Shown one piece after another: positions 40,277-41,728 of a stretch of 64,000 bases of DNA (within the stretch, counting starts at the first letter, position 1; the number at the start of each line of letters is the position of its first letter). The notes beneath the pieces were generated by a model that searched no databases, was not told the DNA's origin, and was given only the letters and a program-made list of their open reading frames with translations. The stretch is from the NCBI GenBank assembly GCA_945863875.1, contig CAMBBS010000003.1:1-64000 (forward strand), in the 5' to 3' direction. The translations under genes and the position numbers were made by a program. The DNA is from Desulfopila aestuarii DSM 18488. Its GTDB lineage: Bacteria > Desulfobacterota > Desulfobulbia > Desulfobulbales > Desulfocapsaceae.

Positions 40277-40306
40277 TACAGGGTTCTTTTAACCGAGAGG
40301 TGAACG

Positions 40307-41659
40307 ATGAAAAAAACATTTTTAAAGCTGGGACTGGTTGCCCTGCTGGTAACCAATGTGTTTATGGTAAGCGAGGCGGTGCCGGGTTTTAGCGGAGTCG
40401 TTTTTGCCGCGGACGCGGCCAAGGTGGTAAAGCCGGCTGATGCGCAAAGCGTCAAAGGCAAGATCTCCAACATTTCCCAAAAAGCGAAAACCATCGCTCT
40501 GACCCTAAGCGATAGCAGCTTCTTCCTGGCAAAATTCACCGACGAAACAAAACTCAAAGGCGTCGAGTCGATAAAAAGCCTCAACGTAGAAGAGCCGGTA
40601 ATCGTCGGTTACTCTGTCGTCAACGGGGAAAACATCGCCACCTCTCTGGAATTAATCCATGCGACCCTGCCGGCCGGCACCAAGGAAATTAAGACCAAGG
40701 AGCTTGCTGAACTTCTCAAAAGCAACAAAGACCTGCTTGTTATTGATTCCCGTCCATCCATCAAATACGATGAAAGCCATATCCCCGGCTCTATCTCCGT
40801 CCCGTATGCCCAGATCGTTAAAATGGGCGACGACGGTGCAAAGCTTCTGGAAAAATATAAGGACCGACAGCTGGTCTTTTATTGTGGAGGTTCTACCTGA
40901 ACCATGAGTCCAAATTCCGCCGGTCTGGCGGTTAAATGGGGTCATAAAAATCCTCTCGTCTACGTTGAAGGCCTTCCTGCCTGGAAAAAAAGCGGGAACC
41001 CTATAAGCCCAAGTATCGACTATGTCGCAAACGGCAATATTGTGCTGGTGGATCTGCGCAGCACGGCTGAAGTGCAGAAAGGGCATATCCCCAGAGCCTA
41101 TTCTATACCCTTTGGTGAGCTTGAAGATGCCGAAGACGCTCTTCCCAAGAGCCTGGGTGCGCCCATCTATGTTTATTCTGATAAAGATGCGGAGGTTAAT
41201 GCAGCCCGGAAAATACTAGCCGAATTGGGCTACAAAAACATCGTCGGTTTCCATGGAGCTCTGGACGCATGGACAGGTGCAGGAAAACCATTGCAAAAGG
41301 GACCGGCTCTGACGGCAACGGACGAGACCCCGATCAACTGGCAGAAAAAACTCGGACCGGGGGAAATCAGCATCACCGATTTCACCAAATCCCTTAAGTC
41401 GGATCTCATTCTAGTGATCGATGCACGGACACCGGTAGAATTTGAGTCAGGTCACTTTCCCGGCTCCGTCTCCATCCCGCTTGAGCAGATGAAGGCCCGG
41501 ATAAATGAAATTCCCAAAGACAAATTTATTGTCGTCCACTGTGCAACCGGTGGTCGTGGAGAGATCGGCTACAGAATGCTCAAGGAAGAAGGCTACTCCG
41601 TCAAATTTCTCAATGCCGAATGTGAATGTTCGACGACAGGATCATTTGAAATCTGGTAG
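40307..41659 (+). CDS. Exported triple-rhodanese selenoprotein (Sec at TGA 40898-40900)
   Basis: Two frames (40307-40900 and 40904-41659) are in the same phase and are split only by TGA. Read with selenocysteine at residue 198 they give one protein of 450 residues. A signal peptide ends near VVFAADA, then an OB-like part (SVKGKISNISQKAKTIALTL) leads to three rhodanese domains. Domain 1 has IDSRPSIKYDESHIPGSISV and an active-site loop FYCGGST-U-TMSPNSAGLA; in relatives this loop is CGGxxC, so Sec replaces the second Cys and C193 stays. Domain 2 (DLRSTAEVQKGHIPRAYSIP) has YSDKDAE with serine S291 where the catalytic Cys is expected, so it is probably inactive. Domain 3 (IDARTPVEFESGHFPGSVSI) has C412 in VVHCATGGRG. 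A CEC pair (C439, C441) is near the end. It would act on sulfane sulfur in the periplasm. The second half has no ribosome-binding site, and its M200 lies inside the loop. Confidence 0.88.
40898..40939 (+). promoter_or_regulatory. Bacterial SECIS element for Sec insertion at UGA-198
   Basis: Right after the UGA is a stem CCGCC (40917-40921), loop GGUCU (40922-40926) and GGCGG (40927-40931). The loop begins 22 nt after the UGA. Lower pairing (UU bulge, then U-A, U-A, A-U and CC/GG to 40938-40939) extends it. The E. coli fdhF SECIS has the same GGUCU apical loop at a comparable distance, the SelB-binding feature. Confidence 0.8.
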
Positions 41660-41686: not shown

Positions 41687-41728
41687 AGCGAGAGGCCCGA
41701 GGCACGGCAGTGCCTCGGGCCTCTCGCT
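41687..41728 (+). terminator. 19-bp perfect hairpin after the selenoprotein gene
   Basis: Arms 41687-41705 (AGCGAGAGGCCCGAGGCAC) and 41710-41728 are exact complements with loop GGCA. The T-tract that follows is poor (ATTGCCACCCTGTTTC), so it may act as a transcription pause, mRNA 3' protector, or terminator. Confidence 0.7.

Follow-up and report, generated by a model that had tools for sequence, protein, structure and literature searches.

The reading frame at 40307-41659 of the window, that is, of the whole 64,000-nucleotide stretch of DNA analysed here, is very probably a single selenoprotein gene in which an in-frame TGA specifies selenocysteine (Sec) at residue 198 (Table 1). The TGA at 40898-40900 is the only interruption between the ATG at 40307 and the TAG ending at 41659; it lies between two ORFs of the same phase, 40307-40900 (197 aa) and 40904-41659 (251 aa), which are separated by the TGA and one codon. 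An earlier note on this DNA, made from the sequence alone, had described two in-phase frames split only by this TGA, the second of them without a ribosome-binding site. Both points are borne out, the first by the read-through translation of 450 residues and the second by inspection of the sequence by eye, in which no such site is seen ahead of the second ATG at 40904 and the Shine-Dalgarno-like sequence precedes the ATG at 40307. The note had also placed the TGA in the rhodanese active-site loop, which is correct and can be made more precise: in the context VFYCGGST-U-TMSPNSAGLA of the joined product the catalytic Cys is C193, and the TGA follows five residues later. Comparison with the two nearest relatives gave a dN of 0.11-0.14 against a dS of 0.74-0.90 beyond the TGA, indicating that coding constraint persists 3' of this codon; protein constraint is present on both sides of it. 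The GC-rich hairpin that follows the gene has no T-run and is absent from the terminator scan output.

Table 1. Features of the rhodanese selenoprotein gene and its surroundings, in window coordinates.
Feature	Position	Strand	Basis or remark
Shine-Dalgarno-like GAGAGGTGA ahead of ATG 40307	40295-40303	+	read from sequence
Selenoprotein gene, one frame	40307-41659	+	ATG 40307, TAG stop 41657-41659; read-through translation, 450 aa
Probable Sec-type signal peptide, about residues 1-37	40307-40417	+	by eye; helix 2-19 in model
N-terminal beta domain, family not recognised, about residues 47-120	40445-40666	+	strands in model
Rhodanese domain 1, active-site loop C193-GGST-Sec198	40676-41011	+	NCBIfam stretch 124-235
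TGA codon, residue 198, read as Sec	40898-40900	+	homologue codon counts
bSECIS-type stem-loop	40904-40945	+	fold -18.6 kcal/mol
Rhodanese domain 2, no catalytic Cys (IYVYSDKD)	41030-41323	+	NCBIfam stretch 242-339; sequence
Rhodanese domain 3, canonical loop CATGGR (C412)	41339-41611	+	aligned family sequences
GC-rich hairpin, perfect 19-bp, possible transcription terminator	41687-41728	+	just 3' of gene; fold -45.1 kcal/mol

The family search covered 93 genomes, 89 of which gave some hit at E 0.001; many weak hits covered just a portion of the protein. Ninety homologous places were compared: 88 from this search (80 of the 81 matches of at least 150 bits, G022:C101 being left out, and eight weaker ones among the matches listed) and two further loci (L010 and L011). 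L010 lies on the same contig as L021 and, as a duplicate, was omitted from the TGA sets, the tree, the motif counts and both alignments. The codon ranking and the 65-sequence protein alignment do not include L106, which has an extra in-frame TAG, and neither L106 nor L143 is in the tree or the 87-sequence motif counts. The codon at the site is TGA in 76 of the 90 places, TGC in seven and TGT in four, while the remaining three have a shortened loop in which the position does not align with certainty. Eight orthologues, among them the window's own, match at 62-100% identity and have exactly one TGA apiece within the match, always at the same place; given this recurrence and the 76 TGA codons among the 90 places, the TGA is neither chance nor a base-call error. 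The expectation of the earlier note that relatives have Cys at the TGA proved right, 11 of the 90 places having a Cys opposite residue 198, in loops of the forms CGGVTC, CDGVTC and CGGWxC. Sec and Cys are equivalent at this site: on a tree computed with the site masked, TGA and Cys forms interchange, with at least five changes forced by strongly supported branches and with the sister pairs L125 (Cys) and L132 (Sec), and L118 (Cys) and L116 (Sec). The tree was built quickly, and long branches are flagged in it for L145 and L157, for the four Cys forms that are most distant and for the three rows with the short loop; neither of the two sister pairs contains a flagged row. A plasmid search with the 450-aa protein returned no match.

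In the paralogues L151, L152 and L153 (from G019, G013 and G010, respectively) the first loop is two residues shorter (FYGVGGCLSP), with the catalytic Cys absent right after FY and one Cys kept near the Sec position. A reading of these sequences as Gly at the site, with joint loss of Cys193 and Sec198, was rejected, the loop being short and an alternative gap aligning the Cys with Sec198; they give no firm indication for or against a Cys/Sec pair and no longer lend support to the chemistry proposed below.

A putative SECIS-type hairpin, absent from the earlier note, follows the TGA and is strong evidence for the Sec reading. The hairpin shared by all 72 distinct TGA sequences lies 18-30 nt 3' of the TGA; its core in the window sequence is CCGCC-GGUCU-GGCGG at 40917-40931 with the loop at 40922-40926, and outer helices form there between 40904-40907 and 40942-40945 and between 40909-40912 and 40937-40940. 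With identical stretches merged, the 75 TGA forms give 72 sequences for the hairpin alignment. Pairing holds in 288 of its 288 cells for the four core pairs (40918-40921/40927-40930), 10 of these cells being changed on both sides, and RNAalifold on these 72 sequences gives one four-pair helix (columns 21-24/30-33, counted from the T of the TGA) and no outer helix, the outer helices not being conserved family-wide. None of 500 shuffles reached the observed percentage paired, the number of double-changed cells or the covariation score; two of the five covariation measures are weaker, 16 of the 500 shuffles reaching the observed number of pairs and 21 that of pair types. The codons of the hairpin were also ranked by synonymous constraint, a measure that assumes no structure: among 139 columns (four- or six-fold residues with the same residue in at least 40 sequences), A205, G206, L207 and A208 take ranks 1-4, with values of 0.89-1.00 against a median of 0.43. 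At least four pairs from the loop are found in all 75 TGA forms and in one of the 11 Cys forms. The commonest loop, GGUCU, occurs in 40 of the 75 TGA forms and is also the loop of E. coli fdhF. Folding energy after the TGA shows a modest gain over synonymous-codon shuffles, too weak to carry the case alone: in the 48-nt stretch after the TGA the mean z is -0.84 for the 75 TGA forms (-0.32 in control windows, n 520) and -0.56 for the 11 Cys forms (-0.35 in control windows, n 76), and the window's own stretch has a z of -1.37; its own 61 nt gave -3.30 against dinucleotide shuffles. The SECIS argument is based on the codon-level and covariation tests and not on the energy test. No SECIS family of Rfam matched the window at gathering score, a null result that is uninformative since bacterial SECIS elements are, to our knowledge, not well modelled in Rfam.

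The 450-aa product matches the Pfam Rhodanese family (PF00581) with 152.3 bits (cut-off 22.2) over three stretches, no other Pfam family being found in it, and its AlphaFold2 model has a mean pLDDT of 87.8. The putative signal peptide suggests that the protein is probably exported to the periplasm; a lipobox-like pattern, seen in 37 of 87 family sequences, is absent from it. A catalytic Cys of the rhodanese type is present in domain 1 (C193) and domain 3 (C412) and not in domain 2, which is probably inactive, judging from its loop. C412, G415 and R417 of domain 3 are invariant across the 65 aligned sequences, and the loop pattern CxTGxR is found in 81 of 87 family sequences. Five residues ahead of the site a Cys is present in 84 of the 87, including every one of the 73 TGA and 11 Cys rows counted, and a Ser stands three residues after the Sec in 66 of the 73 TGA rows (U-T-M-S in the window's protein). 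The window genome holds a second rhodanese selenoprotein candidate (L048; G000:C9, near 108000, with its TGA at L048:1660), in which the very position of the catalytic Cys is taken by the TGA (IVIY-U-ASGGRSR, UxxG) and a hairpin comes after this codon; a long domain further on looks ferritin-like by eye.

We propose that translation starts at 40307, that the hairpin after the UGA at 40898 recruits SelB with Sec-tRNA, and that Sec would be inserted at residue 198, translation continuing to 41659 and the product being exported to the periplasm. Cys193, as the catalytic thiol of domain 1, would take up sulfane sulfur as a persulfide; Sec198 could then attack this persulfide, with sulfide leaving and a Cys193-Sec198 selenenylsulfide remaining, which an electron donor would re-reduce, while domain 3 (CATGGR) may load or receive sulfur. 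This persulfide-reduction chemistry is offered tentatively. The selenocysteine rhodanese of the earlier note stands; the "higher reactivity" and the "sulfur-transfer enzyme" that it named outrun the observations, and for its "sulfate reducer" the analysis covered the kinship to Desulforhopalus. The neighbouring genes give no functional clue: they are cmoA- and cmoB-like methyltransferase genes (our own reading of Pfam matches), a gene for a 181-aa protein of unknown kind and a rhomboid gene, and the last three recur in the flanks of five (cmoB-like), five (181-aa) and four (rhomboid) of seven genus mates searched.

A selenoprotein with another job, in the handling of selenium or tellurium oxyanions, in metal stress or as partner of a periplasmic cytochrome, instead of the reduction or transfer of sulfane sulfur, is somewhat unlikely yet has real points in its favour. 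Four more distant homologues (L027, L035, L041 and L046) adjoin related genes, the adjoining product shown for L027 has repeated CxxCH motifs, and ExtH, as described in the available text of PMC5877670 and PMC6148476, is a rhodanese-family lipoprotein of 49.0 kDa from a Geobacter cluster tied to selenite and tellurite reduction. However, the window protein has no match to the NCBIfam ExtH model (NF040901) at E 0.001, which only 4 of 65 family members match (best E 1.1e-7), and no cytochrome is encoded by the cmoB-like gene, the 181-aa gene or the rhomboid gene next to it. The CxxCH-motif neighbour of L027 is in itself a possible link to electron supply.

Among the Sec-machinery genes named in the earlier note, selA, selB and selD are present in the window genome, whereas a selC for tRNA-Sec with anticodon UCA was not found in its assembly (93 contigs, 98.5% complete). 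The matches over cut-off are selA on C52 (618 bits), selB on C16 (353 bits) and two selD genes on C30 and C4 (367 and 358 bits); both selD genes (L058 and L059) have an in-frame TGA at the Sec position, in KGGGU and RTCGU. Neither the Rfam model (150 of 475 first-look candidates scored) nor blastn with a genus mate's gene found a UCA tRNA-Sec in the 93 contigs, and an anticodon-arm pattern gave one match, at a place where ARAGORN calls no tRNA. A complete UCA tRNA-Sec is present in 12 of 14 genus mates; in G050 the gene is cut by a contig end, and the search of G051, a genome that is 56% complete, returned none. Six selC neighbourhoods were compared, and in each of them the DNA similarity takes in selC together with an acyltransferase-like gene some 0.8 kb beyond it. 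The DNA around the relatives' selC has no match in the window genome, and the acyltransferase-like protein has only a 24% match there (20.5 bits). The selC of G053 is on the 3' side of a glyQ-like gene, and the two are close together in G056, G052 and G054; in the window genome other genes come after the glyQ-like gene (C64, 17.9 kb), the other selC flank matches parts of C21 and C22, and no contig break is demonstrable at the expected selC spot beside the glyQ-like gene. The selC block is likely to be missing from the assembly, because the acyltransferase-like gene is missing as well, the Sec genes are intact and there is a precedent: according to the available text of PMC5330540, every tRNA-Sec gene not found in the benchmark was missing from the assembly.

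It is improbable that tRNA-Sec was recently lost and that the selenoprotein genes are now truncated relics. Such a loss would fit the lack of a UCA tRNA-Sec in an assembly of this completeness and a contig that runs on past the glyQ-like gene, where G053 has selC, but selA and selB are open, the two selD genes, the window gene and the second rhodanese gene are open except for the TGA, and the selC-adjacent acyltransferase-like gene of relatives is absent too; the cut selC of G050 and the benchmark just cited also speak against it.

The sole match to the tRNA-Sec model over the Rfam cut-off in the window genome (54.8 bits) has the anticodon GCA, and a tRNA-Sec search alone would therefore mislead for this assembly. 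This tRNA (L001:1501-1590, minus strand; G000:C30:43537-43626) lies near a selD and a yedF-like gene and resembles the selC* tRNA-Cys type of PMC7609411, whose available text describes opal-reading selC* tRNA-Cys in Desulfobacterales. A GCA tRNA of this type is over the Rfam cut-off in 3 of 15 genomes of the genus (also L076 and L077), and all three are near an HdrD-like Fe-S gene (our own reading), which is apparently split into two frames in the window genome. Decoding of the UGA as cysteine by such a tRNA, delivered by SelB, would account for the presence of a GCA-anticodon tRNA-Sec-like tRNA where no UCA tRNA-Sec is found, but it is highly improbable. The anticodon GCA reads UGC and UGU, and the SelB search gives a single match over cut-off in the window genome. 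The same TGA gene occurs together with a complete UCA tRNA-Sec in five genus mates (G048, G049, G052, G054 and G056), and the next-best matches to the model there are ordinary tRNA-Trp or tRNA-Ser where typed by ARAGORN (L081, L084, L078, L087 and L089); G053 and G057 each have a GCA tRNA of this type as well as a UCA tRNA-Sec. The GCA tRNA would be expected to read Cys codons, a reading of UGA being unlikely. A true loss of the canonical UCA tRNA-Sec, with UGA decoded by some unusual adaptor (the GCA tRNA near selD, for instance), would mean that this strain has re-wired its selenoprotein decoding; such a reading is barely credible.

Two separate genes or a pseudogene, with the TGA as a true stop or a sequencing error, can practically be dismissed: a second ORF of 251 aa does have its ATG three bases past the TGA, but 75 sequences, after exclusion of the duplicate, share the TGA together with a hairpin under constraint, no ribosome-binding site is seen before the second ATG, and the break falls inside one rhodanese domain.

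The preferred reading, a single Sec-containing rhodanese, adds to a known class. Five forms of rhodanese selenoproteins are listed in the available text of a 2026 review (PMC13188914), among them form 1, a rhodanese-like selenoprotein with the motif UxxS (WP_010941598.1; Zhang and Gladyshev 2005, in PMC13188914). TsoB, a rhodanese/DsbD fusion-like selenoprotein, has the listed motif UxxxxU. Form 1 shares the rhodanese domain and UxxS with the window protein and may or may not be the same family, the comparison covering the listed motif. TsoB (NF045694) is the best NCBIfam match, with 80.4 bits over residues 124-235, a match that falls far short of the cut-off of 805 bits and covers only profile positions 42-158 of 572. 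Both proteins would have two redox residues five apart, provided that UxxxxU lies in this stretch of TsoB as we assume, the first being Cys in the window protein and Sec in TsoB. By analogy, the rhodanese/DsbD fusion and the UxxxxU motif suggest how electrons may be supplied to such a pair in TsoB. Rhodanese_LYCAU (NF041203; form 3, CxU) likewise has a rhodanese domain in which a Cys and a Sec are near each other, although the score of 57 bits does not reach the cut-off of 115, its spacing is C-x-U and not the C-x4-U of the window protein, and its model has 126 positions against three rhodanese domains here. ExtH of Geobacter sulfurreducens is, as the window protein probably is, an exported rhodanese-family protein, of similar size and from an anaerobe, but it is described as a lipoprotein and no Sec is reported for it in the available text. 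The tandem rhodanese folds 1yt8 (Pseudomonas aeruginosa) and 6mxv (Francisella) are the two best PDB sequence-profile matches and take first and third place in the fold search; at 18-20% identity and TM-scores of 0.22-0.24 of the query, the agreement is at domain level only.

No NCBIfam model scored the window protein above its curated cut-off, implying that automatic annotation probably splits or truncates the gene. Among the papers available to the search none combined Desulfobulb, selenoprotein and rhodanese, and one combined TsoB with selenoprotein; in the NCBI taxonomy Desulforhopalus is placed in Desulfocapsaceae, Desulfobulbales. The gene is a well-supported new case among the known rhodanese selenoproteins, and the C193-x4-Sec198 spacing is specific here. 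With Sec and Cys forms side by side and a constrained hairpin after the TGA, this set of sequences offers a clean test of what Sec contributes to a rhodanese active site.
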